A stretch of DNA of 64,000 nucleotides, from assembly GCA_947258655.1 (NCBI GenBank), contig CAMYJD010000011.1:1-64000 (forward strand). Direction: 5' to 3'. Positions 26,362 through 56,768 of the stretch are shown piece after piece. Positions within the stretch are counted from its first letter, which is position 1. Every line of letters starts with the position of its first letter. The position numbers and the translations under genes were made by a program. The notes beneath the pieces were generated by a model. The model saw nothing but the letters and a program-made list of their open reading frames with translations. It was not told the DNA's origin and made no database searches. The stretch comes from an uncultured Gammaproteobacteria bacterium. Lineage in GTDB: Bacteria > Pseudomonadota > Gammaproteobacteria > JAADHQ01.

Positions 26362-26910
26362 GTGAAGACATTTTTAGCGATCGGTACTTGTGCACTGCTG
26401 TTTTGCACCCAGCTATTCGCACAATCACCTGCAACTTCCCCGACAACGCCAGGCAAAAAGGACATGCGTGGGCTGGACAACCAGATTCAGGACCTGAAAA
26501 AAGAGGTACTGAAGCTGAACCGCGATCTTTTTATACTTGAGGAGGAGCTGCTGTTTCCGGCCACATCTCAGGTGGCGGTCTTTCTGTCAGTTGATGTCGG
26601 TGAATTTTTCAAACTGGACGCAGTACAACTGAAGATAGACAACAAGGTCATTAACAATTACCTGTATACAGAACGTGAAGTCGATGCGCTGCACCGCGGT
26701 GGTGTGCAGCGTTTGCACATCGGCAATCTGAAAGTTGGCAAACACGAATTGGTTGCCACCTTTACCGGCAAAGGACCTCGCGGCAGAGATTACCGCCGTG
26801 CTTCGACTCTGGTTTTCGAAAAACAGACGGATGCAAAATACCTGGAACTACAGATCGTCGATTCCGAGGCAAAATATCAACCAGTATTCAAGATCAAGGA
26901 ATGGGAATAA
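26362..26910 (+). CDS. exported coiled-coil protein, first gene of Glt-like operon
   Basis: Unrecognised by name. The 182-aa protein starts with GTG behind a strong GGAGG, has a signal peptide ending at LFAQSPA, a short coiled coil (DNQIQDLKKEVLKLNRDLFI, residues about 39-60) and a beta-rich C-terminal domain (VAVFLSVDVGEFFKLDAVQL, HIGNLKVGKHELVATFTGKG) of about 115 residues. The position ahead of two TPR proteins and a TolQ-TolR motor suggests a periplasmic part of a trans-envelope complex. Its stop codon lies about 20 bp before the next start. Confidence 0.8.
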   Translation: MKTFLAIGTCALLFCTQLFAQSPATSPTTPGKKDMRGLDNQIQDLKKEVLKLNRDLFILEEELLFPATSQVAVFLSVDVGEFFKLDAVQLKIDNKVINNYLYTEREVDALHRGGVQRLHIGNLKVGKHELVATFTGKGPRGRDYRRASTLVFEKQTDAKYLELQIVDSEAKYQPVFKIKEWE

Positions 26911-26930
26911 TTAAAAGGGAAGGCGCTACC

Positions 26931-31621: not shown

Positions 31622-32237
31622 ACTGTTATTTGCGCCGGGCATTGTGCTGATACTGGCCATCCAGGCCTGTAGCACTACCACTGTCAGTCCGGACAAAAAG
31701 CCGGCCGCGGTCACGACTGCCGGGAGCGCAACCAAACAGGCTGCAAAACCAGCCATCGATCCGGTAGCCAGCAACGCCTACCAACGGGCGCTACGCGCCA
31801 TCACGCAGGGTAATGAAGACCAGGCCGTCAGTCTGCTCACAGACATGACCGGCCAATACCCGAACTTCTCGGGTCCACATGCCAACCTGGGATTGCTTTA
31901 TTTGCGCCAGGGTGACAGCATCAAGGCCGAAGCGGCATTCAATGCAGCGCTGCGGGTCAATCCGAACAATGCGGTTGCCAATAACCATCTGGGCATTATC
32001 TATCGTCAACAGGGGCGCTTTAGCGAGGCCGAACAAGCCTACCTGAACGCGCTGCAATCCAAACCCGATTACGCCAATGCCCACCTGAACCTGGCCATAT
32101 TGTACGATATTTACCTACTGAAGTTAGATAAAGCTTTACAGCACTATCAGCAATTTCAGTCACTGCAGGCTGCGGAAGACAATACCGTAAAAAATTGGAT
32201 TATTGGTCTCAAGCGGCGCATCAAAGTGTCGAAATAA
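31608..32237 (+). CDS. small tetratricopeptide-repeat lipoprotein
   Basis: Starts at ATG 31608 inside the end of the preceding gene, with GAGG about ten bases upstream. The 209-aa protein has a lipoprotein signal (APGIVLILAIQACSTTT), a short Lys/Ala/Pro-rich linker and three classic TPRs (FSGPHANLGLLYLRQGDSIK, NAVANNHLGIIYRQQGRFSE, YANAHLNLAILYDIYLLK). It is comparable to PilF-type or GltE-type outer-membrane TPR lipoproteins. Context favours the latter, because the next genes encode a TolQ-TolR motor rather than pilus proteins. Confidence 0.82.
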   Translation: MRYSRLLFAPGIVLILAIQACSTTTVSPDKKPAAVTTAGSATKQAAKPAIDPVASNAYQRALRAITQGNEDQAVSLLTDMTGQYPNFSGPHANLGLLYLRQGDSIKAEAAFNAALRVNPNNAVANNHLGIIYRQQGRFSEAEQAYLNALQSKPDYANAHLNLAILYDIYLLKLDKALQHYQQFQSLQAAEDNTVKNWIIGLKRRIKVSK

Positions 32238-32251
32238 TATAGAGGTGAAGC

Positions 32252-32530
32252 ATGAAAAAGTTTGCGTATATATTAACAGGTATGCTTTTCTCGCTTGCGG
32301 CCCTGGCGGCAGATGAAGTTGAACTGGAAGGCACATCGATCATCGGTAACCGTGAGTTACCCAAGGTGCTGTATATCGCGCCATGGAAAAAACCGTATAT
32401 GAGCGAACTGGGGCGCCCGGTCAACTCATTAATCAATGATACGCTGGCTCCGATCGAACGTGACGTAATGACCAGGACCATCCGTTATCATGATCAGCTG
32501 GCAGAACAACAGCAGGCAGGCAAGCCCTGA
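32252..32530 (+). CDS. small exported protein of the Glt-like operon, 92 aa
   Basis: A signal peptide (KKFAYILTGMLFSLAALAAD, cleavage after ALA) precedes about 72 mature residues with KVLYIAPWKKPYMSELGRPV and a charged helical end. GAGGTG lies seven bases before the ATG. I do not recognise a family. It is the last gene before a 138-bp gap and the motor genes, so it may be a soluble periplasmic linker of the same complex. Confidence 0.72.
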   Translation: MKKFAYILTGMLFSLAALAADEVELEGTSIIGNRELPKVLYIAPWKKPYMSELGRPVNSLINDTLAPIERDVMTRTIRYHDQLAEQQQAGKP

Positions 32531-32668: not shown

Positions 32669-33319
32669 ATGGATACCTATAACGCTATAGTCAGCTTCTT
32701 TCAGGATGGAGGTATCTTTATGTACCCCATTGTTATTGTTTTCGCACTGGGCCTGGCTATCGCTATCGAACGTTATATTTACCTAACCCTGGCCAAGACC
32801 AACAACAGCCGCTTATGGAAAAAGATCATCCCAATGGTCAAAACAGGGCGTTTTGATCAGGCCAACGAAATCATCAATAAATCCAAGTCAGCCATTTGCA
32901 AGATCCTGTCCTACGGCATGGACCGCATCAAGATTGCCCGCCGCCGCGATGATCTGGAAACAGCACTGGAAGAAGGCCTGATGGAAGTCATTCCACGACT
33001 GGAGAAGCGCACGCATTACCTGGCGACACTGGCCAATATTGCGACGCTGCTGGGCCTGCTCGGTACCATTATGGGATTGATCTCGGCATTCACAGCGGTA
33101 TCCAATGCCGATCCTGCAGACAAGGCCAACCTGTTATCGTCCAGTATATCGGTGGCAATGAACACGACCGCCTTTGGACTGATGTCGGCAATACCATTAC
33201 TGCTGATCTATACCGTGTTACAGACCAAGACTACCGAAGTCGTGGACAGCCTGGAAATGGCATCGGTGAAATTCATGAATGCGGTGCAGGAAGTCAAGGA
33301 AAGAGCCACTAAATCATAA
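32669..33319 (+). CDS. TolQ/ExbB/MotA-family proton channel protein (AglR-like)
   Basis: Inner-membrane stator subunit expected to form a pentamer with ExbD/TolR dimers and convert proton flow to motion or force. The 216-aa protein has helix 1 at residues about 15-35 (GGIFMYPIVIVFALGLAIAI), a cytoplasmic loop (residues 40-110) and helices 2-3 with LATLANIATLLGLLGTIMGL, ISAFTAVSNADP and ISVAMNTTAFGLMSAIPLLL. The last two carry the conserved Thr and small residues of the family. AAGGAG at a perfect distance marks the start. The gene ends in TAATG overlap with the first ExbD gene. Confidence 0.93.
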   Translation: MDTYNAIVSFFQDGGIFMYPIVIVFALGLAIAIERYIYLTLAKTNNSRLWKKIIPMVKTGRFDQANEIINKSKSAICKILSYGMDRIKIARRRDDLETALEEGLMEVIPRLEKRTHYLATLANIATLLGLLGTIMGLISAFTAVSNADPADKANLLSSSISVAMNTTAFGLMSAIPLLLIYTVLQTKTTEVVDSLEMASVKFMNAVQEVKERATKS

Positions 33320-33843
33320 TGAACAGATATAACCGTTACCGGGACAATTCTCCCCCGGAACTGAACATCACTGCGTTCATGAACCTGATGGTAATCCTGG
33401 TACCGTTCCTGTTGATTACCGCGGTATTCTCGCGCATCACGATATTGCAGTTGAACCTGCCTGAGGGCAGTAATGCGGCAATAGAGAACCTGAAAAAGGA
33501 GATGCACCTTGAAATCACCGTACGCAAGGACTATCTGGATGTCGGCACACGCGAAGCCGGACGTATCCGTTGCCTCAAGGCCACTGCAGACGGTTATGAT
33601 TACCAGGCACTGTCCGAACTGATCCAGCAAATCAAGTTGCGCGTACCGAACAAGAAAAATATTACCCTGCTGGCAGAAACCAACACCGCTTACGAAATCA
33701 TCGTCAAGCTGATGGATGCATCACGCTCAATCAAGCAGACTCAGGGTCTGGCGGTCGTTGATGCTGAACTGTTCCCGAACATTTCCATCGGCGATGCGCC
33801 ACCATTAAATCCGGCGCAATTAAAGGCAGGATGTCCGTCATGA
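33319..33843 (+). CDS. ExbD/TolR-family protein lacking the membrane Asp
   Basis: A 174-aa single-pass protein: short N-terminal cytoplasmic segment, one helix (NITAFMNLMVILVPFLLITA, residues 16-35) and a periplasmic ExbD-like domain (for example DYQALSELIQQIKLRVPNKK and ITLLAETNTAYEIIVKLMDA). In ExbD and TolR the helix holds an essential proton-accepting Asp (D25 and D23 in E. coli) in a VD or MD motif. Here that position is Asn22 (FMNLM), so this subunit alone should not carry protons. It pairs with the second ExbD, which keeps the Asp. Start overlaps the TolQ stop. Confidence 0.9.
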   Translation: MNRYNRYRDNSPPELNITAFMNLMVILVPFLLITAVFSRITILQLNLPEGSNAAIENLKKEMHLEITVRKDYLDVGTREAGRIRCLKATADGYDYQALSELIQQIKLRVPNKKNITLLAETNTAYEIIVKLMDASRSIKQTQGLAVVDAELFPNISIGDAPPLNPAQLKAGCPS

Positions 33844-34343
33844 AGATGTCTCGTCGCGCAAGACGAATGCAACGTCACCATAAACGTAAAAAAAGTGCCA
33901 TTGCCTTCAACATGGTCTCGCTGATGGACATCTTTACGATCCTGGTATTTTTTCTGCTGGTCAGTTCGTCCGATGTCGAGGAACTGCAAAACAACAAGAG
34001 CATACGCCTGCCGGAATCGACCGCTGAGAAGAAACCCAAGGAAACCCTCGTGATCATGGTCAATAACGACGATATTATCGTCAAGGGGCGCAAGGTCGCT
34101 ACGGCTGCCGATGTCATGAACAGCAAGGACGCAACCATCCCGCTGCTCAAACAGGAGCTCGACTATCAGGCCAGTCGCGCACAGCCGCGTGAAGCCGGAG
34201 AAAAATTTGCAGGTGAAGTGACCATCATGGGTGACCGCAAGATCCCCTACCAGTTATTGAAGAAAATCATGGTCACGTGTGCGCGCAGTAATTACACCAA
34301 GCTATCACTGGCAGTAAACCAGGCAGGATCGGGGAGTCAATAG
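33831..34343 (+). CDS. ExbD/TolR-family protein with the membrane Asp
   Basis: A 170-aa ExbD-type protein with a very basic N-terminus (RRARRMQRHHKRKKS), then a helix NMVSLMDIFTILVFFLLVSS in which Asp33 occupies the conserved proton-binding site, and a periplasmic domain with LVIMVNNDDIIVKGRKVATA. It is longer in the cytoplasmic part than its neighbour. Start is either ATG 33831 behind AAAGGCAGG or ATG 33840, which overlaps the preceding stop codon as ATGA. Together the two ExbDs may form the heterodimer inside the TolQ-like pentamer. Confidence 0.9.
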   Translation: MSVMKMSRRARRMQRHHKRKKSAIAFNMVSLMDIFTILVFFLLVSSSDVEELQNNKSIRLPESTAEKKPKETLVIMVNNDDIIVKGRKVATAADVMNSKDATIPLLKQELDYQASRAQPREAGEKFAGEVTIMGDRKIPYQLLKKIMVTCARSNYTKLSLAVNQAGSGSQ

Positions 34344-34345
34344 AC

Positions 34346-35275
34346 ATGAACCTGACAATGGAAAGAGCTGTCGAACTGCCCTGGTCTAGCAATGCCGATG
34401 AAAGCACCCGTTTTCGCAATATCGTCATTGTTGTCCTGGCTGTTACGCTAATACTGTCCATTATCATCCCCAATCTGACCGTCGAAAAGCCGGAGCGCAA
34501 GAAAGCGGAAGAAATACCACCGCGTTTTGCCAAACTGATCCTGGAAAAAAAGACCCCGCCACCACCCCCGCCACCCAAGGTGGAGAAGAAACCGGAAAAG
34601 AAGGTCGAGAAGAAAAAAGTCATTCCGAAAAAGAAGATCGTCAAAAAGAAAAAGAAGGTCGTCAAACCTGATCCGGACCGCGCGCGCAAGGTAGCAGAAA
34701 AGTCAGGGCTGCTGGCATTCCAGGATGATCTTGCCGACCTCAGGACCAGTGTTTCCGACCAGGTACTGAAAAACCGCAATCTGCAAAAAGGCGGTAATGA
34801 GGCGCAGAAAACCACACGTAATATCATCAGCGCCAAAGCGACCAGCGCCAGTGGCGGTATCAACACCTCGCGCCTCAGTCGTGATACCGGCGGCAGCAAT
34901 CTTGCCAGTCGCAGCGTGACCCAGGTAGAGAGCAAACTCAAGGCAAAGAAAACCACGGTTAAACGCTCTGGCAGCAGTCGCAAGGCCTCGCGTTCGATAG
35001 AGGAGCTACAACTGGTATTCGACAAGAACAAGGGCGCCATTTATGCCATCTACAACCGCGCGCTACGTAAGGACCCAAGCCTGCAAGGCAAAGTCGTGCT
35101 TAAACTGACCATCGCTCCATCCGGGCATGTTAGCAAATGCAGCATCGTCTCCAGCGAGCTGAACAATCCCAGGCTGGAACGTAAACTGGTGGCACGGGTA
35201 AAACTGTTCCGCTTTGGCGCCAGGAATGTGGACACCATGGTCACGACCTACCCGATAGAGTTCCTGCCGTCCTGA
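34346..35275 (+). CDS. TonB-like protein with AgmX/PglI-type C-terminal domain
   Basis: A 309-aa energy-transducing protein: cytoplasmic N-terminus, one membrane helix (IVIVVLAVTLILSIIIPNL, residues about 26-44), a proline run followed by a long Lys-rich spacer (residues about 68-112), a Ser/Thr/Arg-rich middle, and a C-terminal domain beginning IEELQLVFDKNKGAIYAIYN with LQGKVVLKLTIAPSGHVSKC and ending FGARNVDTMVTTYPIEFLPS. That end is typical of the AgmX/PglI (GltJ/GltG) tail, a TonB_C relative. It would couple the TolQ-ExbD motor to the TPR lipoproteins. Last gene of the operon. Confidence 0.88.
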   Translation: MNLTMERAVELPWSSNADESTRFRNIVIVVLAVTLILSIIIPNLTVEKPERKKAEEIPPRFAKLILEKKTPPPPPPPKVEKKPEKKVEKKKVIPKKKIVKKKKKVVKPDPDRARKVAEKSGLLAFQDDLADLRTSVSDQVLKNRNLQKGGNEAQKTTRNIISAKATSASGGINTSRLSRDTGGSNLASRSVTQVESKLKAKKTTVKRSGSSRKASRSIEELQLVFDKNKGAIYAIYNRALRKDPSLQGKVVLKLTIAPSGHVSKCSIVSSELNNPRLERKLVARVKLFRFGARNVDTMVTTYPIEFLPS

Positions 35276-44079: not shown

Positions 44080-45690
44080 TCAGACAATCTGCGGAAATGC
44101 TATATACGGCGCCAGTGACGTGACCGAACTGCCGAGGCCACCGAACAGGCTGGCGTACTCGCCTTCCCTGCCCTGCAGGGCCAGATAGTTCAGCACCACT
44201 GTCTCTGCGAGCAGATTGACATTATTGGCAGCGGCACTGGACGCGGTGTCTACTGAGCCATCATCACGATACCAGCCAATCTGGTCTCGGAGCACAGTCG
44301 GACGTGTACCCGCATTCGGATCAAAGTACAACATCAACGATCCGGCCGTGGACGAATTATCGCCGGTCCACACACCCTTGCCGCGACCATCGGTGGAATT
44401 ATCGATCATACCGTTACTGGCCAGTGAGCCATCACTGAATACATACATCAGCAGGGGTGTATTATTGGCCGCCGCATACTGCAGGCAGGCGCCCATGCAA
44501 CGTCCTGCTCGCAGGTCGCGGATTTCACCGTCAGAACGGCGTCCAGTATGATAATCATAACCACCCATGGCAATGGTACCGACACCGGCATGGCCATCGA
44601 GCACCATCTTCATGACTGCCGCGGTCTTGCGGAATTCACGCTCGCCGTCAAATTCGGCCTGGGTGAAGATACCGGTGCCGCCGAAATTGGCCGGATCGGC
44701 GCCATCGACGATCCTGCCATCCAGGGACGGATCGATCTGGACATTGGCAAAACGATCGGCAATATCGGCCGCCTTTAGATAACCGCAACGGACCAGGTCC
44801 CGGGCCACGTCATCGGCGCTGACCAGGGTATTGACCTGGTCAATTTTCTGGTTACTGATGCGGACGATGGATTCCATGACCGCAACGACGTCGTCTTTCT
44901 CGCTGAGGATGCCGGTCAGGTTGCCGGTATCGACCATACCGGTCACATCGGAAGCGCGATCGACCTTGGTCGGACGGATCTTCGGATCGATCATCGTCGC
45001 CGGCGCCAACGAGTTGCCACCGGAATCGGAGTTGCGCGAGCCAATCAGTGTGACGATGCCGCCGTTCGCGCCGGCCTTGGCAATCCCATACATTGGATTA
45101 TGCGGATTGTTACCGGTGTCATTATCCGAACGTGCCGCAATCAGAGTGCCATTGACCTTGGCGCGTGCGGCCGGGTCCGTCAGCTTGTCGAGTATGCCGC
45201 GTAAAAAGGCACTGTCCGAATGGAACATCAGGCCCAGCGTCGAATCGGTATGATCGCCATTACTGGTTCCGGTCGCGGATGGCGCGGGCTCAGCCACGCC
45301 GGGAATCATGTCACCGGGCAGACCGAACTTGCGGTAACCTGCCGTGGTCATCAGGTCTGTCTGCCCACCCTGACCACCGGGCAACACGTTGGAGCCGGCA
45401 ATACTGGCGCCACCGGCCAGATCGAAACATATAACAGGTATTGGATTGGCGCCTGCCGCCCCGAGCACACAACTGGTCGACAGGTTGCCGGCCAGATCAG
45501 ATAGATCAGTCGACAGCGCCGCCTGTGCCGCACGCGGATTGGCAAACAGGCTGAGCACCGAGCCTCCCAGTGTCATGCCCATGCCGGAGATCAGTCCCTG
45601 GCGCAGAAAATCCCTGCGGCTGACCGGTTTCGGATGGTCCGGATATAGTAATGGCGCATCCGGATGAAGAGGTTGATTTCGTTTCGTCAT
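44080..45690 (-). CDS. DUF1501-type protein exported by the TAT pathway
   Basis: A 536-aa protein with a twin-arginine signal (PVSRRDFLRQGLISGMGMTL, cleavage near AAQA, residue about 58), so it is folded before export, possibly with a metal. The body carries a DUF1501-like (sulfatase/alkaline-phosphatase-like fold) pattern: GTIAMGGYDYHTGRRSDGEI and NTPLLMYVFSDGSLASNGMI. In planctomycetes and some gammaproteobacteria DUF1501 genes stand beside c-type cytochromes of the DUF1585/DUF1592 kind, as here. Third gene of a minus-strand unit, 40 bp after the LamG gene, closed by a strong terminator. Confidence 0.8.
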   Translation of the reverse strand: MTKRNQPLHPDAPLLYPDHPKPVSRRDFLRQGLISGMGMTLGGSVLSLFANPRAAQAALSTDLSDLAGNLSTSCVLGAAGANPIPVICFDLAGGASIAGSNVLPGGQGGQTDLMTTAGYRKFGLPGDMIPGVAEPAPSATGTSNGDHTDSTLGLMFHSDSAFLRGILDKLTDPAARAKVNGTLIAARSDNDTGNNPHNPMYGIAKAGANGGIVTLIGSRNSDSGGNSLAPATMIDPKIRPTKVDRASDVTGMVDTGNLTGILSEKDDVVAVMESIVRISNQKIDQVNTLVSADDVARDLVRCGYLKAADIADRFANVQIDPSLDGRIVDGADPANFGGTGIFTQAEFDGEREFRKTAAVMKMVLDGHAGVGTIAMGGYDYHTGRRSDGEIRDLRAGRCMGACLQYAAANNTPLLMYVFSDGSLASNGMIDNSTDGRGKGVWTGDNSSTAGSLMLYFDPNAGTRPTVLRDQIGWYRDDGSVDTASSAAANNVNLLAETVVLNYLALQGREGEYASLFGGLGSSVTSLAPYIAFPQIV

Positions 45691-45730
45691 GATTCTATTC
45701 CTTACACTGATCGCTATTCACCAGATTAAC

Positions 45731-48490
45731 CTACTGCACCAACATCGCAGCGCTACCAAGGGCAGATGCACACATCGCCTTCACCATTGATCGTGTCCGT
45801 GTCGCATCCTGTACGCATGCGGGCTGCCGTGGTGATCCATCCTGTCTCAAATTCGTTGCACATCCATTGTATAGACGATCAAACAAATTATTGGGATTGC
45901 TCGCGGCCGGGCCAATCAGTTCCGCCTTGACGGTCGCCAGCGTCGGTGCATCGGTTACAGCTGTACCGGTACCGGGCAGACCAATCATTTTATTATACAA
46001 GGCGTTGACGATCTGGTTTTTCTGTGTTGAATCGCCACTACCAAATGCTGTATCGGGATCGGCTGTGAAGGCAAAACTGCCGAAGAATGTATTGCGTTTG
46101 GAGCTATCCTCTACCAGTGCATCACAATAGGCGATCGACAACTGCGCAACAGCCATCTGATGCGCCGACAGGAAACCGGAAATAGTCTCCACCGCGGGCA
46201 GTTGCTGCTGCAGGTTATTGTATTCGTCGATCAGTCGATTGGGTGCACTGCCGGCATACGGATCTACAGTGGTGATCTGCATCATGCTGGCATTGATTTC
46301 ATCGAAGGTACGCACACCGATGTCCGATGACTGTGGCTTGGCCGCTAGGCCCTGTTGCAGCGGATCGACCAGCTGCCCGGTTGGCACCGGATCGCTATAG
46401 TCACGCGATGACACGGCAACCAGCTGCTCGAAGGTCAGGAAGAACTCGTCGCCATCCGCGCCTTTCTGACTGGAAACAATGGTACCGAGATCGGACAATG
46501 CAACACCGGCCTTGATATCATCCGTAGTCGTGACCGTGACCGCCATGTTTCTGTAGGCCTGGCCGACAGCGACCTCCTTGCCATTGATCCCAATACGCAT
46601 ACCCTTGATATCAATATCAGCCGCCAGTGGATCACTACTGAGACGGATAAAGACCGGATTCGTGAACAGATAACTGTAGTTATCGTACTCACTGACCTCG
46701 AACATGATGAAGTCACTGCATTCATTGGCATTGGTGTTGCCGGGACAGGTATGGTCCTTGACGCTAAACAGCATCAGGAATTTGGCCCCGACGCCGACAC
46801 CGAAGTTTTGTGTAATCTGCGCCTGATCCAGTACCCGATTATGTATGGCCACGAGACGCAATTTACCGGACCATGGATTATTTCTCCCCTGGTCGTTGCC
46901 CATGACAAAGGCATAATTACTGTCCCAGTTAACCAGAGTACCTAGCGAACTCGCGTCGGTCTCCTTCAGTTCACCATTGACATAGATCTTCTTGCCCTCA
47001 ACAGGATCAAAGGTGACAACAACATGCTGCAGTGTCGCCTGCAGGGTTTCATTCTGGGTTGAGGTAGCCGGCCCACCATCACCCAGGGTCGTATTGGTGC
47101 GATTCAGATAATCGTATTCATATAACGACTGTCCCAGGGTGAAATTTCTGCTGGTGCTATCACCTCCCATATAACTGATGATATGTGCAGGACCTTCCTG
47201 GGTTACATTGGCAGGAACGACCCAGGCCTCAATGGAATATTCACCGATATCCCTGATCATGTTATACAGCTTCTTGCTGTCATTGACACTGGCCTGGGCC
47301 CTGGCACGCCCTTTAAATTCGACACCGTAACCGCGCACCCAACTATAGTCACCATTATCGCCGCTCAGTGACAGGTTCATGGCCGGGTCTACACCACTGG
47401 TATCATAGGCGGTGTTACCGGTACCACGCTTGAATTCATACAGGGCGATGACATTATTCTCAAAACGATCTCCACCACTGGCGACAATCGCATCGGCCAG
47501 TTTCAGTGCCTTACTGTACTTCAGGTCTGCTGCTATCGCGGTCTCGGTCAGGTCCTGAGCAAAGGCTGTGACCGCATCTTCAAGCTCCTGGGCGTCACTG
47601 ACACAATCCGACCAGCATTGATGGGATTCCTCGCGCAATCTGACTACAATACGTGACTTGTCTGGATTATCGAGGTCAATCTTTTGCGCGCCCTTCAGTT
47701 CTTCATATGCCTTGGTCGCATCACTCTCGGCAAAAAATGGTGTTTGTGGCGTGCGCGAAGAACTGACATGACAACCCGCACAATGCGTACTCAACAATCC
47801 ATGCAGGCTGGTAGAGGGTGTGGGCAATGTAGTAAAGCTGGCAACACCGACGGCATTATCATCGGGATAATTCTTGCTCGCACCAGGGTCGACGATTACT
47901 GCCGGTGGATTCAGTTGAATGGTCTTGGTCGAGCCGCTGCCGCTATTGCCAATCCAGCCATCGATATACGCATTCATGATATCGGAACAGACACTGCCCT
48001 GCGATGGACCCAGCCAGCATTGATGATTACGCACCTTGTCAACGAAAAATGACTGTTGTGTCTGTACTCTGTCGATAAAGGGTACACTAGTTGTACTGTT
48101 CAGACTGACCAGGTTATTGACATCGGTATCATTGATAATCGCGCGATAGGCCGCATTGACATCATCATTACGGGCAAAATAAGGGGCCTGCGCTGTCGCC
48201 GATGCCGGATCATGGCAGGCACCACAGCGATTACCTGCCCTCAGATTTTCCCAGAACCCAAGCTGGAACTTTCTGATATCCGGATTGGACGGGTCTGCAG
48301 CAGGGCCGGTATAGGTTTGCAATACCGGTGGTTGCGTATTAACGTTACTCTCGGTACTTGCGCCACCGCCACAACCTGCCAGCAACATCGCGCCCAGCGC
48401 GCTAAATCCTAACAACTGCAATATATGAGTGATGCGAGATCTCACCGGTTTACAGGATTGTATTTGTTCAGTCGTTAGCATTTTTATCAT
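45731..48490 (-). CDS. LamG-domain lipoprotein with two c-type haem motifs
   Basis: Start chosen at ATG 48490, with GGAG seven bases upstream, giving 919 aa and a lipoprotein signal (FSALGAMLLAGCGGG). Two CxxCH motifs follow: CGACH at residues 89-93 and CAGCH at 237-241, in cytochrome-like segments. Residues about 350-560 form a LamG/concanavalin-like domain (VIALYEFKRGTGNTAYDTSG, YSIEAWVVPANVTQEGPAHI, KKIYVNGELKETDASSLG). The C-terminal third is helical and unrecognised. Likely surface or periplasmic, electron-carrying and possibly carbohydrate-binding. It lies between the one-haem protein and the DUF1501 protein. Confidence 0.82.
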   Translation of the reverse strand: MIKMLTTEQIQSCKPVRSRITHILQLLGFSALGAMLLAGCGGGASTESNVNTQPPVLQTYTGPAADPSNPDIRKFQLGFWENLRAGNRCGACHDPASATAQAPYFARNDDVNAAYRAIINDTDVNNLVSLNSTTSVPFIDRVQTQQSFFVDKVRNHQCWLGPSQGSVCSDIMNAYIDGWIGNSGSGSTKTIQLNPPAVIVDPGASKNYPDDNAVGVASFTTLPTPSTSLHGLLSTHCAGCHVSSSRTPQTPFFAESDATKAYEELKGAQKIDLDNPDKSRIVVRLREESHQCWSDCVSDAQELEDAVTAFAQDLTETAIAADLKYSKALKLADAIVASGGDRFENNVIALYEFKRGTGNTAYDTSGVDPAMNLSLSGDNGDYSWVRGYGVEFKGRARAQASVNDSKKLYNMIRDIGEYSIEAWVVPANVTQEGPAHIISYMGGDSTSRNFTLGQSLYEYDYLNRTNTTLGDGGPATSTQNETLQATLQHVVVTFDPVEGKKIYVNGELKETDASSLGTLVNWDSNYAFVMGNDQGRNNPWSGKLRLVAIHNRVLDQAQITQNFGVGVGAKFLMLFSVKDHTCPGNTNANECSDFIMFEVSEYDNYSYLFTNPVFIRLSSDPLAADIDIKGMRIGINGKEVAVGQAYRNMAVTVTTTDDIKAGVALSDLGTIVSSQKGADGDEFFLTFEQLVAVSSRDYSDPVPTGQLVDPLQQGLAAKPQSSDIGVRTFDEINASMMQITTVDPYAGSAPNRLIDEYNNLQQQLPAVETISGFLSAHQMAVAQLSIAYCDALVEDSSKRNTFFGSFAFTADPDTAFGSGDSTQKNQIVNALYNKMIGLPGTGTAVTDAPTLATVKAELIGPAASNPNNLFDRLYNGCATNLRQDGSPRQPACVQDATRTRSMVKAMCASALGSAAMLVQ

Positions 48491-48569
48491 CCTAATTCTC
48501 CACAAACCTTTATGCAGGCCATGTGCAATTAATTGAAAATCGCGTTGTTCCATAATTTAATCAGCAAGG

Positions 48570-49868
48570 CTAGTATGTACTTCCATCTTTGCAGTAAGCA
48601 GCTGATTCAGCAAAGATCTGCTTCATATTGACGGCACCGGTTCCGATGGATGCAACAATCTGATTGATTTGGGTACGATCAGCAGCGCTTTCCATCGGAT
48701 CCCTGATACAGACACTCTCGAATACCTTACGCACCTGGCAACTGGTAAAGGCCTCGCTATTGGCCAGTTCCACGCCCATGGATTTTGCGCCCGAACCATT
48801 GGCCGACGGTCCAGACCAGCCAAGGATGGCATTCGGGCCGTTACGCCAGTAATTGACCCAGTCATCATTACGGGTCACATAGCCATGTTCAAAGTTGCCG
48901 GCATTGATGAGATTTTTCGGTTGCGCCCGGGTCATGCCCTTGGCAGGATCATTCGGATCGACAGGGCGTTCGGTATTGTCATAAACCAGTTGGCCGTTGT
49001 CCGGCTGGTCGGTCGGATAATTCCATTCGTAGTAGGCATAGGCCTGCGCCAACGGGTCCATGCCTGCATGGCAACCGATACAGGAGTTCATAAAGATTCT
49101 GCTGTCACCGCCAGGGCTGCGGGATACATCCTGGCGAATACGATCGGCTGGGCGGGTTATATCCTTGACCTGCTCCATGTCATGACACAAATGATTCATC
49201 ATCGTAAATCGAAGCATTGCGCGATTGGTACCATCAACAAAAAATGCCCTTGCTGCGGCACGCGTGGTCATAACACCTGCAGTCGCAGCGGCGGGAATTC
49301 CTGTTTGTGTCGTCCTGGTCAATTCTGTTTTCAGGTCTGCGCCGCTATCTTCCATGGCTGCGTAATGCGCATTGTTGCTGGTCTGATATCCGGGCGTCGT
49401 CGTTGCGCCAACATACAAAATGTTTTCTGACAGTACGGTCCTGAAATCCAGATTATCGCGAATCATACCGATGACCGTTGCGGTATAGTCATTCAGCGCA
49501 ACGAAGCTTGATTGCGCCTCATTCGTCCACGGCGCCGCAAAATTTTTCAATGTAACGTTATAAAAAGCGGAATTTTCCATCGCAATGTAGGCCGCCTTGA
49601 CTGCTGGGTCCGTACTTGTTGTCAAGCCTGAAACCGCCGAGTCACAGGCGCTGGTGTCGACCGTACTAAAACAGGACTCCATGGTATCGAGCACTGTTTC
49701 AGTTGGCGGCACACCGGCCAGTCTGTCATGGATGCGCTTGGCCATCTCCCTGTCACCCGGTGCTGCAGTTGCAGTCAATGGCAGGCCTGCCAGGTAAACG
49801 ACAGCCAAACTCGCCATTATTGTTTTTTGCAGCCTGTTGATCCTGAAATTCATTTTGTCAGTGTTCAT
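48570..49868 (-). CDS. exported one-haem protein, DUF1585/DUF1588-like
   Basis: A 432-aa protein with a signal peptide (ASLAVVYLAGLPLTATAAPG). A single haem motif CIGCH occurs at residues 263-267 in IFMNSCIGCHAGMDPLAQAY, which strongly resembles the CxxCH-x-x-x-DPL segment of the planctomycete cytochrome domains DUF1588/DUF1585. An additional Cys pair follows near the C-terminus (FTSCQVRKVFESVCIRDPM). AAGGACACTTGCA precedes the ATG. First gene of the minus-strand unit, divergent from the HzsA-like gene. Confidence 0.78.
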   Translation of the reverse strand: MNTDKMNFRINRLQKTIMASLAVVYLAGLPLTATAAPGDREMAKRIHDRLAGVPPTETVLDTMESCFSTVDTSACDSAVSGLTTSTDPAVKAAYIAMENSAFYNVTLKNFAAPWTNEAQSSFVALNDYTATVIGMIRDNLDFRTVLSENILYVGATTTPGYQTSNNAHYAAMEDSGADLKTELTRTTQTGIPAAATAGVMTTRAAARAFFVDGTNRAMLRFTMMNHLCHDMEQVKDITRPADRIRQDVSRSPGGDSRIFMNSCIGCHAGMDPLAQAYAYYEWNYPTDQPDNGQLVYDNTERPVDPNDPAKGMTRAQPKNLINAGNFEHGYVTRNDDWVNYWRNGPNAILGWSGPSANGSGAKSMGVELANSEAFTSCQVRKVFESVCIRDPMESAADRTQINQIVASIGTGAVNMKQIFAESAAYCKDGSTY

Positions 49869-50358
49869 TGCAAGTGTCCTTGGGATCCTGAATTATCTGT
49901 TCGATTGCCCTGTATATGCATCCGTATACAACGGGACTCATCCTTTTTGTTTTTTGTTGTGTCAATTCTTGAATGATTTATGCATAAATTCTGCGAACCA
50001 TGCCGCATTTCCCCCAGTTATGACGTTCATTTTTCTGGTATAGAGACATGGGTCCTGTTTTTCATTATCGGTAATAATATTGAAAAACTTATGATCGAGT
50101 TCACAATCCGGACGAATAAGGCTGGTTTATTCTTTTATATTAATTATATTAACTGGAAACAGGGCATGAATGCTGTTTTATGGTATAAATGCAGCAACAG
50201 AATTAATAGATATATCAACTGTGCCGATAAAGTAAAAATATCGATTCACGCTTGCATAGTGGCACAGACATAAAAACAGCCAGGCCCCGTACAATATTTC
50301 CGCAACATGCCGATCAAATAAAACCACAAGGTGCTTGTTTGTCAGCAAGAGGTAAGTA
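49869..50358. promoter_or_regulatory. 490-bp divergent promoter region of the haem-protein cluster
   Basis: AT-rich region between the two divergent haem-protein units. Several short frames are open but none has a credible start or domain. Both promoters and any shared operator should lie here; no operator could be picked by eye. GAGG seven bases before ATG 50359 is the HzsA-like gene's ribosome binding site. Confidence 0.5.
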
Positions 50359-53319
50359 ATGAAATTGTCTGCATACAAAGGGATTCATGTAACTGCCAAC
50401 GCATTCAGGCAAACGCTATACCTGTGCGCAATAATACTTGTCAGCGCCTGCGGTGGCTCGGGCGACAAGCAGGCACCCGATCCCGTGGTCATCGATCTGC
50501 CGATTGCCTATGTCAAACGCGCCGTGCCACTAGATAATAACAACCTGCCCGTACAGGCAGATGCCAGAGAGGCATTGACCTTCAATGCAGGCGGCGACCT
50601 GTGGATACGCGACCGCGCCAATCCCTCGGCCAACGCGCGCAACCTGACCTTGATACAGACCGAGGGTATGGGCGATGTCAAGGACGTCGAAGCATCGTTC
50701 GATGGCAGCATGCTCGTATTTGCGATGCGCGAGCCTGAGCGTGCGACCGATCTGCAAACACCAACCTGGAACATCTGGGTCTATCATATCGCACGCCAGG
50801 AACTCAAACGCGTCATCACCGATGACATTATTGCCGAGGAAGGCGAGGATGTTGCTCCACATTTCCTCCCTGACGACAGGATTATTTTCAGTTCTACACG
50901 ACAGATCGTCAGCAAGGTTATTCGCACCGATGAAGGCTCGATCAATAACACCAGCAAGTCCGCCTACACGGCCCTGGATGAAAGCAGAAACGAGCACGCC
51001 CTTGTGTTACACACGCTGGACATACCCTGCAAGGGAGACGACTTTGACAGCTGCGCGATCAATTCATCTTCCGATATCAGTCAGATCTCGTTCAATCAGA
51101 GTCATGACATCGATGCATCGGTATTGAGTTCGGGTCAAGTCATCTTCACACGCTGGGATCATGCTGGCAGACCGCGACCACAAAGTGCCATGCATCTGTA
51201 CAAATCCAATCCCGATGGCACGGAAATGAAACTGGTATACGGACGCCAGAGCCACGATACCGGCACAAGCATAAACACTGATGTTCAGTTCCTGCAACCG
51301 CGTGAAATGGAAGACGGTCGCCTGTTATCGATCCTGCGGCCGTTTACCGGCACATTCGGTGGCGGCGATATCATCGCCATCGATATCGACAACTACACGG
51401 ACAATACCCGCGCGATCCTGCCCAACCAGATCACATCGCTGACAAGCGGCCAGGCTTCAATCATTGATAACAATGTTACTACTGACACCAGCCCGTCCCC
51501 GGGTGGTCGTTATAGTGCTGCATACCCACTGTGGGACGGCAGCGACCGTATACTGGTCAGCTGGAGCCCCTGTCGCTTGCTGGAAGTCACAACTATCGTC
51601 GCCTGCACACCCGCACGCCTGGCCAATCCGGCAGCACAGGAGGCCCAGCCCCTGTATGGCCTGTTTATCTTCGATCCGGCCGACAAAACACAGCGTCCCA
51701 TCTTCGCGCCGGAAGAAGATATATTGTATAGCGACATCGTCGTTGCCCAGGACCGGACGAAACCCACCGCGATCACCAACAAGGTCCCCGGAGTCGATCA
51801 GGAACTGAACCTGAAACTGGCCAACCGTAACAGCGGATTACTGCATATACGCAGCGTTTATGATATCGATGGTGTATTCTCAAGCCTGGGTATGAACGCG
51901 ACCAGCTTCAACACGCTCACAAACCTCGCAAATACAGATCCAGACGGCTATACAGGCCTGTACAATTTCTCCCAGGACAACCGCCTGATCGCCTACCTGG
52001 CGGACCCGGCGCGTTTCAATTCAGATGAGCGCCCGGCACGTTTTCTGCGCATCATAAAATCCGTCGGTATCCCGGATGAGCTCAATGGTGCGGATTTCGA
52101 TATTGCCGACGATGCCTTCGGCAACAATAATGTGCAGCAGGGTATGCGCGAGATCATCGGCTATGCGCCAATCGAACCGGATGGCTCGGTCATGGTCGAA
52201 GTACCGGCGAATGTGCCGCTGGCAATCAGCGTTGTCGACAAGAACGGTCAGCGCATATCACTCCGCCATTTGTCGTGGATACAGGTAAAACCGGGCGAGA
52301 CCGTGACCTGCAGCGGTTGCCATAACGACACGCCCAATACTGTCAATCCGGTCGACGGTATCCATGGGCATACCACCGAGCCGCTGGGCGCGAATCATGG
52401 CGCACCTGAGAATGCCTACATTTTCCCCGGCACCAACACCAACCCAATGATTGTCGGCGATACGATCAGTTCACAGACAACGGGACAGACCATGGCCCAG
52501 GCACGCTATGGCGAGCAGTGTGAAAAAACCGCAACAACGGATTGTCGGCCCGATTTTGATATAGATTTCGTCGATATCTGGACCAATGGCGCCGAGACAC
52601 CATTCAGCTATGAGTTCAGGCAATTGCTAAACGATGAAGTCATACCATTGAGTATCAACTGCTATGATCCCGCACTTGCCATGAACAAATGGGAAGCCAC
52701 TTGTCGTAACATCATTAATTATCCAGACATCATCCAGCCGATATGGGAGGCTGCGCGCGCCGAGGACATTGTTTGTGACCCGACCCAGGTCATCAATGAT
52801 CCGCGCTGTGAACGATTCATCAACCCGGTCACGCCACCGCCTGTGCCGTATGTGTTCCCGCTGACGGTCAACGTCGACAGTACCTGTACTTCATGCCATA
52901 CCCTACAGACACCGCAGACCCGTCTGGCCCTGAACCAGGACCCGCGCCGGAACAACAACCATGTGCTGTCCTACACCGAGCTGTTTCAAGGCGCTACCCT
53001 GCAGAACCAGCAGGCCAGGGATCCGGTCACTTGCGAGGCCCTGACCATCGAGGTGCCACTGGTGCCGCCGGACCCGAATGATCCCGATGCGACCATGACT
53101 GTACCCGATCTGCGTACAGTCAATGTGGACCCGCAGATGTCAACCGATGGCGCCCTGGCGAGTGTGTTTTTCGGCCGCTTTGAGGCCGACATCATGTGCC
53201 AGACCGTTGACCACAAAGCCATGCTGTCGACGCATGAAAAGAAACTCCTGTCCGAATGGCTGGATATTGGTGCGCAGTATTACAATGATCCGACCAATAT
53301 GAATGTGCCGGTGAACTGA
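50359..53319 (+). CDS. two-haem lipoprotein related to hydrazine synthase alpha subunit
   Basis: A 986-aa protein with a lipoprotein signal (LYLCAIILVSACGGSGD). Residues about 70-470 look like a beta-propeller built of WD40-like repeats (GDLWIRDRANPSANARNLTL, VEASFDGSMLVFAMREPE, APHFLPDDRIIFSSTRQI, FLQPREMEDGRLLSILRPF). CSGCH at 651-655 follows (VKPGETVTCSGCHNDTPN), and CTSCH at 843-847 lies in a C-terminal cytochrome-like part. Propeller, middle haem domain, C-terminal haem domain is the domain order published for hydrazine synthase alpha of anammox bacteria. There is no hzsB/hzsC here, so hydrazine synthesis is not implied; a radical or redox reaction on another substrate is possible. Confidence 0.82.
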   Translation: MKLSAYKGIHVTANAFRQTLYLCAIILVSACGGSGDKQAPDPVVIDLPIAYVKRAVPLDNNNLPVQADAREALTFNAGGDLWIRDRANPSANARNLTLIQTEGMGDVKDVEASFDGSMLVFAMREPERATDLQTPTWNIWVYHIARQELKRVITDDIIAEEGEDVAPHFLPDDRIIFSSTRQIVSKVIRTDEGSINNTSKSAYTALDESRNEHALVLHTLDIPCKGDDFDSCAINSSSDISQISFNQSHDIDASVLSSGQVIFTRWDHAGRPRPQSAMHLYKSNPDGTEMKLVYGRQSHDTGTSINTDVQFLQPREMEDGRLLSILRPFTGTFGGGDIIAIDIDNYTDNTRAILPNQITSLTSGQASIIDNNVTTDTSPSPGGRYSAAYPLWDGSDRILVSWSPCRLLEVTTIVACTPARLANPAAQEAQPLYGLFIFDPADKTQRPIFAPEEDILYSDIVVAQDRTKPTAITNKVPGVDQELNLKLANRNSGLLHIRSVYDIDGVFSSLGMNATSFNTLTNLANTDPDGYTGLYNFSQDNRLIAYLADPARFNSDERPARFLRIIKSVGIPDELNGADFDIADDAFGNNNVQQGMREIIGYAPIEPDGSVMVEVPANVPLAISVVDKNGQRISLRHLSWIQVKPGETVTCSGCHNDTPNTVNPVDGIHGHTTEPLGANHGAPENAYIFPGTNTNPMIVGDTISSQTTGQTMAQARYGEQCEKTATTDCRPDFDIDFVDIWTNGAETPFSYEFRQLLNDEVIPLSINCYDPALAMNKWEATCRNIINYPDIIQPIWEAARAEDIVCDPTQVINDPRCERFINPVTPPPVPYVFPLTVNVDSTCTSCHTLQTPQTRLALNQDPRRNNNHVLSYTELFQGATLQNQQARDPVTCEALTIEVPLVPPDPNDPDATMTVPDLRTVNVDPQMSTDGALASVFFGRFEADIMCQTVDHKAMLSTHEKKLLSEWLDIGAQYYNDPTNMNVPVN

Positions 53320-53519
53320 TTGGATGAAAAAATGCATGATGTTATGGCCAACTAGCTGTAGTCAGCCGTGATATTCACCTTTATACTGTGACCAGGTACG
53401 GGATAACAATAAGTGTTTGTCAGGAATTGCGCCCAGGTGGCCGCTAACAGGCAAACGAGATAATAAACTGACAGGATTTTGCCTGGCGATTGCTGCCCAA
53501 ACGCCAGACAAACGAAATT

Positions 53520-54260
53520 ATGCGAATAGTCTTTTTTTGTTTACTTGTATTACAGGCATTGGCCAGCGGGCAAGCCCGGGCCGAGGAAACATACCTCGAG
53601 GTGATTGTTTCCGACCCGTACATCGAAATGCATACCGGACCGGCATCGGGTTATCCGGTAACACATGTCATCGAGCGTGGCGAAAAAATCAAGGTACTGA
53701 TTCGTAAAACGGACTGGTACAAGGTAAGGACCCGTAAAAACAAGGAAGGCTGGGTGCATCGGAATGAGCTCAGGCAGACCCTGACGCTGGACGGCAGGAA
53801 AACTAAATTCAGGGATGTAAGCATCGAGGGCTATCGCAATAGAGATTGGGAAATCGGTCTGCTCAGCGGTGATTTCGAAGGCGCTGCAAGTGTGACCTTG
53901 TATGGCACCTATTATCTGACCCCGACGCTGTCGACGGAGCTATCAGGCACGCATGCCATTGGCAACTTCTCCAGCAGTGTCATGGCCAATGTCAGGATCG
54001 CCGCACACCCGTTCCCGGAATGGCGGGTATCGCCTTTTTTTGCGCTCGGCGCCGGTTATATCAAAACCGAACCGGATGCAACACTGGTCAGAACGGTCGA
54101 CCGCGATGATCCGGTCGCAAATGTGAGCATCGGGACACATATATACCTGACAAAACGGTTTATATTCCGATTGGAATACAATAATTACAAGATATTCACC
54201 AGCAGAAATGACAATGAGGAAGTAGAAGAATGGAAAGCAGGCTTTGCCGTCTTTTTTTAA
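53520..54260 (+). CDS. SH3-like domain fused to outer-membrane beta-barrel
   Basis: From ATG 53520 the protein is 246 aa; a TTG start ten codons earlier is less likely because the signal peptide (RIVFFCLLVLQALASGQARA) begins here. An SH3b (bacterial SH3 type 3) domain covers about residues 24-95 (VSDPYIEMHTGPASGYPVTH, DWYKVRTRKNKEGWVHRNEL). The rest is a small beta-barrel with alternating residues and a C-terminal Phe (WKAGFAVFF), as in outer-membrane proteins. The SH3b part probably faces the periplasm and peptidoglycan. Overlaps the next gene by 31 bp. Confidence 0.8.
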   Translation: MRIVFFCLLVLQALASGQARAEETYLEVIVSDPYIEMHTGPASGYPVTHVIERGEKIKVLIRKTDWYKVRTRKNKEGWVHRNELRQTLTLDGRKTKFRDVSIEGYRNRDWEIGLLSGDFEGAASVTLYGTYYLTPTLSTELSGTHAIGNFSSSVMANVRIAAHPFPEWRVSPFFALGAGYIKTEPDATLVRTVDRDDPVANVSIGTHIYLTKRFIFRLEYNNYKIFTSRNDNEEVEEWKAGFAVFF

Positions 54261-54895
54261 CCGGCGCACATACCACATTCCTTGCACTGCTGATGCTGTC
54301 CATGACAGACATCCATGCCGCTGAGCCACTGGAGAAAAAGACCGAGCAGATTATCCTCCCCGAACTCGAACGTCGCGAAATCAAACAGGCGGCTATTGAT
54401 GCAGAGGACTTTGAATTCGGGATATTTGCCGGTGCCCTAAGTATCGAGGACTTCGGTGTCAATGCGTCTGTCGGTGCCAGACTGACATATCACGTCACCG
54501 AGGACTTCTTTACCGAGTTGAGCGTCGGTGTCTCCAAGGCCTCTGAAACCAGCTATGAGGCCTTGCTAGGCAATGTACAGCTATTGAGTGATGATGAGCG
54601 AGATTACATATACTACAACCTTGCCCTTGGCTATAACCTTTTTTCTGGTGAGGCATTTTTCGGCAAAAGCGCCTTCAACAGTGACCTGTACCTGATTGCA
54701 GGCATAGGCAACACCAACTTCGCCAATGATGACCATTTCACCTGGAGTATTGGAGCCGGATACCGGTTCATCCCCAAGGACTGGTATGCCATCCATATCG
54801 ATTTCCGCGATCATATATTCAACTCTGACATCCTTGGTGCCGATAAACAGACACATAACCTGGAAATAAATGCAGGCATCAGCTTCTTTTTCTAG
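54230..54895 (+). CDS. outer-membrane beta-barrel protein
   Basis: A 221-aa protein with a signal peptide (TFLALLMLSMTDIHAAEP), a short charged helix (KKTEQIILPELERREIKQA) and a barrel of about eight strands ending in ISFFF, a typical BAM signal. The helix-plus-barrel layout resembles a family of barrels described in myxobacteria and some gammaproteobacteria (OMP_myx_plus type, by recollection). AGGAAG precedes the ATG inside the previous gene. It may be partner of the SH3b barrel. Confidence 0.78.
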   Translation: MESRLCRLFLTGAHTTFLALLMLSMTDIHAAEPLEKKTEQIILPELERREIKQAAIDAEDFEFGIFAGALSIEDFGVNASVGARLTYHVTEDFFTELSVGVSKASETSYEALLGNVQLLSDDERDYIYYNLALGYNLFSGEAFFGKSAFNSDLYLIAGIGNTNFANDDHFTWSIGAGYRFIPKDWYAIHIDFRDHIFNSDILGADKQTHNLEINAGISFFF

Positions 54896-54908: not shown

Positions 54909-55415
54909 ATGAAAGTATTATGCAAACACATTATCACTACCCTATGCATGACCGGCGCGCTGCTGCTCTCAACTGGCAGCCAGGCCGCGGCCATAGGCGG
55001 CAGTGCCCCAGACTTTACCCTGAAGAGCAAGAGCGGCAAGAACATCAAGCTGAATGAATATCGCGGTGATGTCGTCATGATCAACTTCTGGGCCTCCTGG
55101 TGTGGCCCTTGCCGTCAGGAAATGCCGGCGCTCGAACAGCTCTATAGCAAGTACAAGGACCTTGGCTTTGTTATCCTCGGTGTCAATATCGATGAAGACT
55201 CCAGCAAAGCCGTCAGTATGCTCGGTAAAATCCCGGTCAGCTTCCCGGTGCTATTCGATCATGCCAAAAAGGTCAGCGACCTGTATGGTGTTAGCGCGAT
55301 GCCCACCACGTTCCTGCTCGATCGTGACGGTAACCTGCGTTACCAGCACAAGGCCTACAAACCGGGTTATGAACACAAGTATGCAAAACAGATCAAGACG
55401 CTGGTCAGGGAATAG
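54909..55415 (+). CDS. TlpA-family thiol-disulfide oxidoreductase
   Basis: Periplasmic thioredoxin-fold protein of 168 aa with an N-terminal export signal and the active site Cys65-Gly-Pro-Cys68 in MINFWASWCGPCRQEMPALE. The cis-Pro loop is YGVSAMPTTFLLDRDG. TlpA/ResA proteins keep haem-binding or copper-binding cysteines reduced, which fits a neighbourhood of c-type haem proteins. GAGG seven bases before the ATG. Confidence 0.93.
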   Translation: MKVLCKHIITTLCMTGALLLSTGSQAAAIGGSAPDFTLKSKSGKNIKLNEYRGDVVMINFWASWCGPCRQEMPALEQLYSKYKDLGFVILGVNIDEDSSKAVSMLGKIPVSFPVLFDHAKKVSDLYGVSAMPTTFLLDRDGNLRYQHKAYKPGYEHKYAKQIKTLVRE

Positions 55416-55417: not shown

Positions 55418-55645
55418 ATGCGTAAATTATCGGTAATTGTGTGTCTCGCGTTTGCGTTGATCATCAGTGGCTGCAGTAACATAGAGCCATGGGTCAAACC
55501 CTATGAGCGCGACCGTCTCGCCGATCCGATAATGAGCTTCAACCGCGACCCCGTTTCATCCTCCTATCTGCATCACGTCTATCAGGCACGCGAGGCGGCA
55601 CGCGGTGCTGAAGGTGGCCAGGGTGGCGGCTGTGGTTGTAACTAG
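55418..55645 (+). CDS. DUF4266 lipoprotein
   Basis: A 75-aa lipoprotein with lipobox ISGCS and the short conserved core EPWVKPYERDRLADPIMSFN followed by HHVYQAREAARGAEGG and a Gly/Cys-rich end (GGGCGCN). This is the DUF4266 pattern. In other bacteria such genes are neighbours of DUF3570, TlpA-like and apbE genes. It is followed at once by the DUF3570 gene, which starts inside its last codons. Function unknown; the Cys-rich tail could bind metal or haem. Confidence 0.85.
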   Translation: MRKLSVIVCLAFALIISGCSNIEPWVKPYERDRLADPIMSFNRDPVSSSYLHHVYQAREAARGAEGGQGGGCGCN

Positions 55646-56768
55646 ATATAGCAAGCGATTATTTATTCTGGGCATATTGTTGCTGAACAATTTATGCCAC
55701 GCAGCCATCCTGCCCGAGGACAGGGCCGATGCGCTGTACCATTCCTATGAGGGTGGCGGTGTCGAGATAACCGGTCCCTCAATACTGGTGCGTAAACAGA
55801 TTGGCGACAGTTTCTCTGTTGGCGGTAATTATTATGTCGACTCGGTCACCAGCGCATCGATCGACGTCGTTACGACGGCCAGCCCGTATACCGAGGAACG
55901 CACCGAGAACAGTATCAGCCTCGATTATCTGCGCGACAAGGTCACGATGAGTATGGCCTATGCCAATAGTGAAGAGAACGACTTCCATGCCCGCTCACTG
56001 CACCTCAGCGTCAGTCAGGAGGTCTTCGGTGGCATGACCACGGTCTCGCTTGGTTACTCACGCGGCTGGGATGAAGTTGGCAAGCGCGGTGATGCGGCAT
56101 TCTCGAAAGACGTCGATCGACATCATTATCGTCTCGGCCTGTCCCAGGTACTGACCAAGGACCTGATCATGGAAGTTGCCGCAGAAACCATCACGGACGA
56201 AGGCTTCCTGAATAATCCGTACCGGCGTGTGCGTTACCTGACCTCAGCAACGACATTCGATTATCAAGACGAGGTCTATCCCAACACCCGCACCAGTAAT
56301 GCCGTGGCAGTGCGTGGCAAATATTACCTCCCCTATCGTGCTGCCTTGCATGGTGAATACCGCTGGTTCAATGATACCTGGGGCATTACTGCGCAGAATG
56401 TCGAGATTGGTTATACGCATCCATTCAAGGACAAATGGACATTTGACTTCAAGGTCAGAGCCTACCAGCAGAATGAAGCCGATTTCTACAGTGACCTGTT
56501 CCCGTTCCAGAGCGCACAGAACTTCCTCGCCCGCGACAAGGAACTCAGCTCCTTTTCGTCAATAACGATTGGCGCCGGCGTCAGTTATGAATTCGCCAAC
56601 GGCGGCTGGGGATTCATCGACAAGGGTAGCATCAACTTTTCCATTGACCATATAGAATTTGAATACGATAACTTCCGTAACGTACTCGCTGGCGGCACAC
56701 CGGGCGCAGAACCCCTGTACACGCTTGAGGCAGATGTCGTTCAGTTCTTTATATCGTTATGGTATTAG
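55632..56768 (+). CDS. DUF3570 outer-membrane protein
   Basis: A beta-rich protein of about 378 aa. Several GTG codons could start it (55605, 55614, 55623, 55632); the last gives a compact signal peptide (RYSKRLFILGILLLNNLCHA). The mature N-terminus LPEDRADALYHSYEGGGVEI and IDVVTTASPYTEERTENSIS are typical of DUF3570, a large barrel family. The C-terminal FISLWY ends in an aromatic residue as outer-membrane barrels do. It overlaps the DUF4266 gene, and the operon ends in a strong hairpin terminator 62 bp further on. Confidence 0.85.
   Translation: MVVTRYSKRLFILGILLLNNLCHAAILPEDRADALYHSYEGGGVEITGPSILVRKQIGDSFSVGGNYYVDSVTSASIDVVTTASPYTEERTENSISLDYLRDKVTMSMAYANSEENDFHARSLHLSVSQEVFGGMTTVSLGYSRGWDEVGKRGDAAFSKDVDRHHYRLGLSQVLTKDLIMEVAAETITDEGFLNNPYRRVRYLTSATTFDYQDEVYPNTRTSNAVAVRGKYYLPYRAALHGEYRWFNDTWGITAQNVEIGYTHPFKDKWTFDFKVRAYQQNEADFYSDLFPFQSAQNFLARDKELSSFSSITIGAGVSYEFANGGWGFIDKGSINFSIDHIEFEYDNFRNVLAGGTPGAEPLYTLEADVVQFFISLWY

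Follow-up and report, generated by a model that had tools for sequence, protein, structure and literature searches.

Haem proteins around an HZS-alpha-like lipoprotein appear to form part of a conserved gammaproteobacterial envelope system with a motor-like module

We analysed a 64,000-nt stretch of DNA (the window) from an uncultured gammaproteobacterium, in which four genes for exported proteins had been predicted to form a divergent haem-protein cluster. Comparison of gene content and order indicated that the haem proteins of the window are part of an envelope system of about 18 genes common to many gammaproteobacteria, which, judging by its protein families, unites flavin, thiol and haem proteins with an energy module resembling a gliding motor. 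Nothing suggests that this system produces hydrazine. The gene content, gene order, conservation, haem sites and fold of the system are established by the observations reported below. In the reading that we prefer, and for which we put the chances at about even, the system would be a motor-energised outer-membrane thiol-flavin-haem relay and the four-protein cluster would be its outer-membrane redox arm. All four ORFs of the original prediction were found at their places, and the interval 44080-53319 does contain the four genes, but roughly half of the conserved locus lies outside it. The remainder, comprising barrel, thioredoxin, DUF4266, DUF3570 and ApbE genes and nine ExbBD/AgmX-module genes, changes the likeliest nature of the system.

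The HzsA-like protein, a di-haem lipoprotein of 986 aa (50359..53319, + strand), carries a lipobox cysteine (Cys31) and two CxxCH motifs at residues 651-655 and 843-847, both invariant in 40/40 relatives. A profile search with the HZS-alpha middle domain (PF18582) matched the protein at 1e-18. A profile of the 40 relatives compared with the PDB gave a single strong match, hydrazine synthase alpha (5C2V, 1.6e-19), which was colinear over the propeller, the middle domain and the C-terminal haem; designed propellers appeared as weak matches far below it. Foldseek analysis of the AlphaFold model (pLDDT 79, pTM 0.81) again returned 5C2V, at 3.7e-28 and a TM-score of 0.66 by target, with TolB next at 4e-8, and both the propeller and the haem domains of the model aligned with those of HZS-alpha. 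The predicted propeller-haem-haem order was thus borne out by sequence profile and by fold, and the model marks the protein as a structural homologue of hydrazine synthase alpha over its whole length. At haem II, the Cys and His residues of the motif, H847 among them, and the distal H952 are invariant in the 40 relatives; H952 is the equivalent of HZS His772, aligning with His745+27 of 5c2v. At haem I, the CxxCH histidine (H655) is kept. Also invariant throughout the cluster family is H637, part of an H..W motif located 14 residues ahead of that of haem I; 15 other HZS_alpha proteins from the same class lack it. From these aligned residues we infer, tentatively, the ligation of haem I. In a quick tree, the cluster HzsA-like proteins formed one group (support 82), separate from the other HZS_alpha proteins. 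The latter (L064-L078) occur in up to four copies per genome, reach 1819 aa and have unrelated neighbourhoods.

Identity with hydrazine synthase was ruled out by residues, score and partners. In the real enzyme Tyr591, four residues past the CxxCH histidine, is the haem I iron ligand (PMC12758564, PMC12607021); none of the 40 relatives has a tyrosine within eight residues after the haem I motif. Of the axial ligands expected around residues 651-655, the CxxCH histidine is kept and the Tyr591 equivalent is absent from the alignment. The relatives also offered no conserved candidate for the zinc ligand Cys303, their conserved cysteines being those of the lipobox and the haem motifs only, although Cys303 is a weak criterion in that some anammox bacteria also lack it. 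Against the NCBIfam HZS-alpha model NF052339 the protein scored 53.8 bits, with a cut-off of 800. In the genome, which is 98.7% complete, the best HZS-beta score was 37 bits against a cut-off of 560, and HZS-gamma gave no match, nor did any control match the gamma model, in agreement with the predicted absence of HzsB and HzsC partners. The further proposal of "HzsA-like chemistry" found no support, as the residues equivalent to Tyr591 and Cys303 are missing. A hydrazine-synthase-like nitrogen chemistry of this protein could draw on the full-length HZS-alpha fold and the conserved positions of the CxxCH motifs; against it stand the two missing residues, the low model score, the sub-threshold beta and absent gamma subunits and an unrelated gene neighbourhood. 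This proposal is already largely refuted, and we consider it scarcely credible. HZS_alpha matches should not be taken as anammox markers.

Downstream of the HzsA-like gene and on the same strand lie genes for an SH3-domain outer-membrane beta-barrel protein (53490..54260; SH3_3 1.3e-11, OMP_b-brl 2.8e-6), the outer-membrane beta-barrel TIGR04565 (OMP_myx_plus; 54230..54895; 1.7e-49, 167.9 bits against a cut-off of 60), a TlpA/ResA-like periplasmic thioredoxin with a CGPC motif (54909..55415; AhpC-TSA 3.2e-32), a small DUF4266 lipoprotein ending in GGGCGCN with a redox CXC (55418..55645; PF14086 2.8e-23) and a DUF3570 outer-membrane barrel (55605..56768; PF12094 2.9e-39), a member of a known ApbE target family with the site TSAS. 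An ApbE flavin transferase of 344 aa (25046..26080, + strand; PF02424 5.2e-81) is one of two encoded in the genome, and in 22 loci ApbE lies inside the cluster. DUF3570, DUF4266, thioredoxin and ApbE were described as a flavin-thiol electron-transfer set, and a Chlorobium DUF3570 protein was shown to be flavinylated (eLife 2021, PMC8238504); all four families are present in the window. The flavinylation site of DUF3570 reads SGAS in 8 of 44 relatives and SSAS or TSAS in most. By HzsA clade, it is mostly SGAS or a variant where P1, P2 and P3 (see below) are absent and SSAS or TSAS in most of the P1-bearing clade. Flavinylation of the window copy is accordingly treated as putative. Comparison of the DUF3570 motif with ApbE adjacency yielded no clean rule, the motif tracking the clade and not the position of ApbE. 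Farther downstream, a CusA/CzcA-type efflux gene and a neighbouring cytochrome gene (59866-62879 and 59195-59703, respectively) are each split into two ORFs in the window; a relative (L002) has intact single ORFs for both, of 1039 and 159 aa, so that two frameshifts seem to be present in the window, caused either by an error of assembly or by decay.

On the opposite strand, P1, P2 and P3 complete the originally predicted cluster. P3 (48570..49868) is an exported mono-haem protein whose CxxCH is present in 24/24 cases, and its designation as DUF1585/1588-like was supported through relatives only: PSD2 (DUF1585) matched 19 of 24, at best 1.5e-6, and PSCyt3 matched 14 of 24, weakly. P2 (45731..48553), as predicted, is a LamG lipoprotein with a lipobox, two c-type haem sites and a Laminin_G_3 domain (7e-20) that recurs in 25/25 P2 relatives; both CxxCH motifs are conserved in 24 of these, the remaining one being masked. 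Since the haem motifs of the HzsA-like protein, P2 and P3 are kept across relatives, they are not due to chance, and the c-type haem sites of the original prediction are real. P1 (44080..45690), a TAT-exported protein of 536 aa with the twin-arginine leader SRRDFL, had been assigned to DUF1501. This was rejected: Pfam found DUF1501 in 0/24 members (the window protein and 23 relatives) and no other convincing match in any of them, and NCBIfam found no DUF1501 in the window protein. In structure searches with the P1 AlphaFold model (pLDDT 73), sub-threshold matches were nearly all to the alkaline phosphatase/sulfatase superfamily (best E 0.01), so that DUF1501 is at best a resemblance and the modelled fold is possibly alkaline-phosphatase-like. 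The HzsA tree, which had no outgroup rooting, split into two well supported clades of nine and 36 loci. The nine-locus clade lacks P1-P2-P3. In the larger clade, nearly all loci carry these genes next to HzsA or have P1 at another place of the genome. For this unrooted tree the simplest reading is that P1-P2-P3 were added once in the larger clade, as a later addition.

The second half of the system lies at 25046-35275, where ApbE is followed on the + strand by a nine-gene module. Its first product, for which "AMIN" is a working name only (26362..26910), is a secreted protein of 182 aa with the motif LEEELLFPxxTQVxVFLSxDVG and no Pfam or NCBIfam match, conserved in 82 of 369 class genomes. There follow three TPR proteins, namely periplasmic TPRa (26901..28808; 635 aa, Pfam TPR) and lipoprotein TPRb (28805..31621; 938 aa, TPR_6 2.8e-20), both conserved in position, and TPRc (31605..32237), a lipoprotein resembling GltE (NF033758, 2.4e-14); a small exported protein of 92 aa without a family, conserved between TPRc and ExbB (32252..32530); an ExbB/TolQ/AglR-type proton channel (32669..33319; PF01618 6.6e-29); two ExbD/TolR-type proteins (33319..33843, PF02472 9e-15, and 33831..34343, PF02472 1.3e-18); and an AgmX/PglI (GltG/GltJ-like) TonB-type energy transducer (34346..35275; NF033768 70.6 bits against a cut-off of 40, GltG 4e-14), whose AgmX domain was matched in 22/22 relatives. 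A 2011 report described the core of the gliding machine of Myxococcus, AglR/Q/S-GltD/E/G/C, as being present in Gammaproteobacteria as a single cluster and as a functional unit of unknown role (PMC3169522). We say that the nine-gene module resembles this published core because AgmX passes its model, whereas GltE stays far below its cut-off (53 versus 225 bits) and the GltC and GltD models found no match in the window module. Free-standing AMIN-TPR-ExbBD-AgmX modules without haem genes (L131-L143) were observed in many gammaproteobacteria.

A scan of genome contigs with a single protein returned only three relatives, and a class-level family search was used instead. PF18582 was detected in 57 of 369 class genomes, 50 of them with the cluster type (~14% of the sampled gammaproteobacterial genomes). 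The order HzsA-SH3omp-OMP-TlpA-DUF4266-DUF3570 was the same in nearly all of 47 loci, with few exceptions. Fifteen of 20 extended loci continued into AMIN-TPRa-TPRb-TPRc-small-ExbB-ExbD-ExbD-AgmX; one of the others ended with its contig and four had no adjacent ExbB-AgmX. The locus occurs in a marine Alteromonas strain, Alteromonas sp. 1_MG-2023 (L004), which has the same nine genes in the same order at ~39% HzsA-like identity; ApbE adjoins them and TPR genes follow. Short CX3CH lipoproteins stand in place of the HzsA-like protein at L128:6203-7072, L129:634-1152 and L130:6291-6797. Over the 369 genomes, cluster-type AMIN was present in 47 of the 50 HzsA-cluster genomes (Fisher, 6e-51), DUF3570 in 50/50 and P1 in 43/50. 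The expectation that the four genes co-occur elsewhere was confirmed by about 30 other loci and by this overlap of P1 and HzsA-cluster genomes.

These data also bear on the view that separate redox and motor operons merely lie side by side. A gap of 9 kb, which holds a histidine kinase and an ABC transporter accompanied by an isochorismatase, separates the two halves in the window, and the motor module has independent paralogues elsewhere, as mere co-location would allow. Nonetheless, gene order is kept over many families at 32-49% HzsA-like identity, and together with the strength of the co-occurrence this makes mere co-location very improbable. In L002 the transporter is missing from this place and the kinase run abuts P1; the transporter is an insertion that splits the two halves in the window. 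The inserted segment (38082-43450) encodes a transporter of the branched-chain amino acid/amide type and an isochorismatase-family hydrolase that is biuret hydrolase-like, below cut-off.

A CRP/Vfr-like operator, TATGATCGAGTTCACA (50090..50105), is predicted in the divergent promoter between P3 and HzsA. The pattern TGTGA-N6-TCACA, with at most one mismatch, occurred in 15 of 31 intergenic regions compared with 0.45 expected from mononucleotide shuffles. FNR-type anaerobic control was considered and rejected, FNR-type sites showing no enrichment over shuffles. Because CRP/Vfr-like sites are enriched and FNR-type sites are not, the predicted operators point to carbon-status control more than to anaerobic control.

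The CRP-like, not FNR-like, character of the operator would suit a surface polymer or lipoprotein machine, in which the ExbBD/AgmX/TPR/barrel module moves or displays polymers or lipoproteins as Glt/Nfs does in Myxococcus, the haem and flavin proteins oxidatively process or cross-link the polymer and the LamG domain of P2 binds it, with no part in respiration or long-range electron transfer. This proposal has a precedent in Glt/Nfs (PMC3169522; also PMC3858216) and agrees with the presence of the core without haem genes, with LamG in every P2 relative and with the SH3 domain on a barrel. It accounts less well for the thioredoxin-DUF4266-DUF3570-ApbE set, a generic electron supply larger than a single oxidase would appear to require. 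Moreover, of the two HzsA clades one lacks P1-P2-P3, which makes LamG dispensable. We regard such a machine as unlikely, though by no means far-fetched. The ExbB/ExbD/TonB-like transducer, along with VIT1 iron transporters in some DUF3570 clusters (PMC8238504), could instead indicate outer-membrane metal (iron) reduction for uptake, by a barrel complex that is energised in a TonB-like manner and has a haem/flavin reductase at the surface. However, none of the window cluster genes was recognised as coding for a TonB-dependent receptor or an iron transporter or as a siderophore gene, and the intergenic regions held no exact match to the Fur consensus, which makes iron reduction a rather improbable explanation.

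For the thiol-flavin-haem relay that we favour, we infer the path of the electrons and the part played by the motor as follows. Electrons would move between the thiols of thioredoxin and DUF4266, the flavin of DUF3570 and, at the outer membrane, the haem lipoprotein. Within the HZS-alpha-like protein, the bis-His haem II (H847/H952) would serve as the relay haem and haem I, in the HZS-type middle domain, as the reactive site; histidines (H655 and invariant H637) would surround haem I where hydrazine synthase has its Tyr/Zn site. Proton-motive force would act through AgmX and the TPR proteins on the barrels and, by analogy with Agl/Glt, the resulting force would assemble, open or move the outer-membrane complex, while P2 would use its LamG domain to hold on to a polymer or to a ligand at the surface. 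The CX3CH lipoproteins that fill the HzsA-like slot in one family without HzsA (L128-L130) are expected if this slot requires a haem relay. Evidence against the relay includes the nine-gene motor module found without any haem genes, which means that the module is not dedicated to redox work, the four extended loci in which ExbB-AgmX is not adjacent, and the DUF3570 site, which instead of the published [ST]GA[ST] has TSAS in the window copy and SSAS across most of the P1-bearing clade.

A bolder version, which we offer as a tentative and on balance doubtful suggestion, is that the locus represents a class of envelope machine not described before: a proton-driven motor of the Agl/Glt type would physically operate an outer-membrane thiol-flavin-haem relay, whose last member would be a surface haem enzyme derived from HZS-alpha, with new haem-I ligation (H637). 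If true, this would give a function to the gammaproteobacterial motor core unexplained since 2011. The predicted undescribed envelope redox system is supported, and the one locus joins three questions, those of the gammaproteobacterial Agl/Glt-like core, the DUF3570 flavin-thiol systems and the non-anammox relatives of HZS-alpha. Among open-licence PMC papers we found no description of the HzsA/DUF1501/LamG/AgmX combination and no experiment on any gene of the locus; given that scope, this absence is weak evidence of novelty.

Compared with known systems, P3 is like the planctomycete PSCyt/PSD haem proteins (DUF1585/DUF1588) in matching DUF1585 in most relatives and unlike them in being short and mono-haem and in being paired with P1 and P2 rather than with planctomycete partners. 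The HzsA-like protein shares with HZS-alpha (5C2V) a fold of three parts, the positions of two c-type haems and the equivalents of His587 and His772, and it differs in being a lipoprotein, in lacking Tyr591, Cys303 and the beta and gamma partners and in having the invariant H637 shortly before haem I. As in the published flavin-thiol systems (PMC8238504), all four families are present and, in most loci, adjacent; those systems have been described with DsbD or VIT1, whereas here an HZS-alpha-like lipoprotein and an ExbBD/AgmX core accompany the set, and the DUF3570 motif is mostly SSAS/TSAS, not [ST]GA[ST]. Finally, the module departs from the Agl/Glt core in its weak GltE, the lack of GltC and GltD model matches and the extra AMIN and small proteins, and it is like that core in combining ExbB, two ExbD proteins, an AgmX/GltG C-terminal domain and TPR proteins in one run (PMC3169522).
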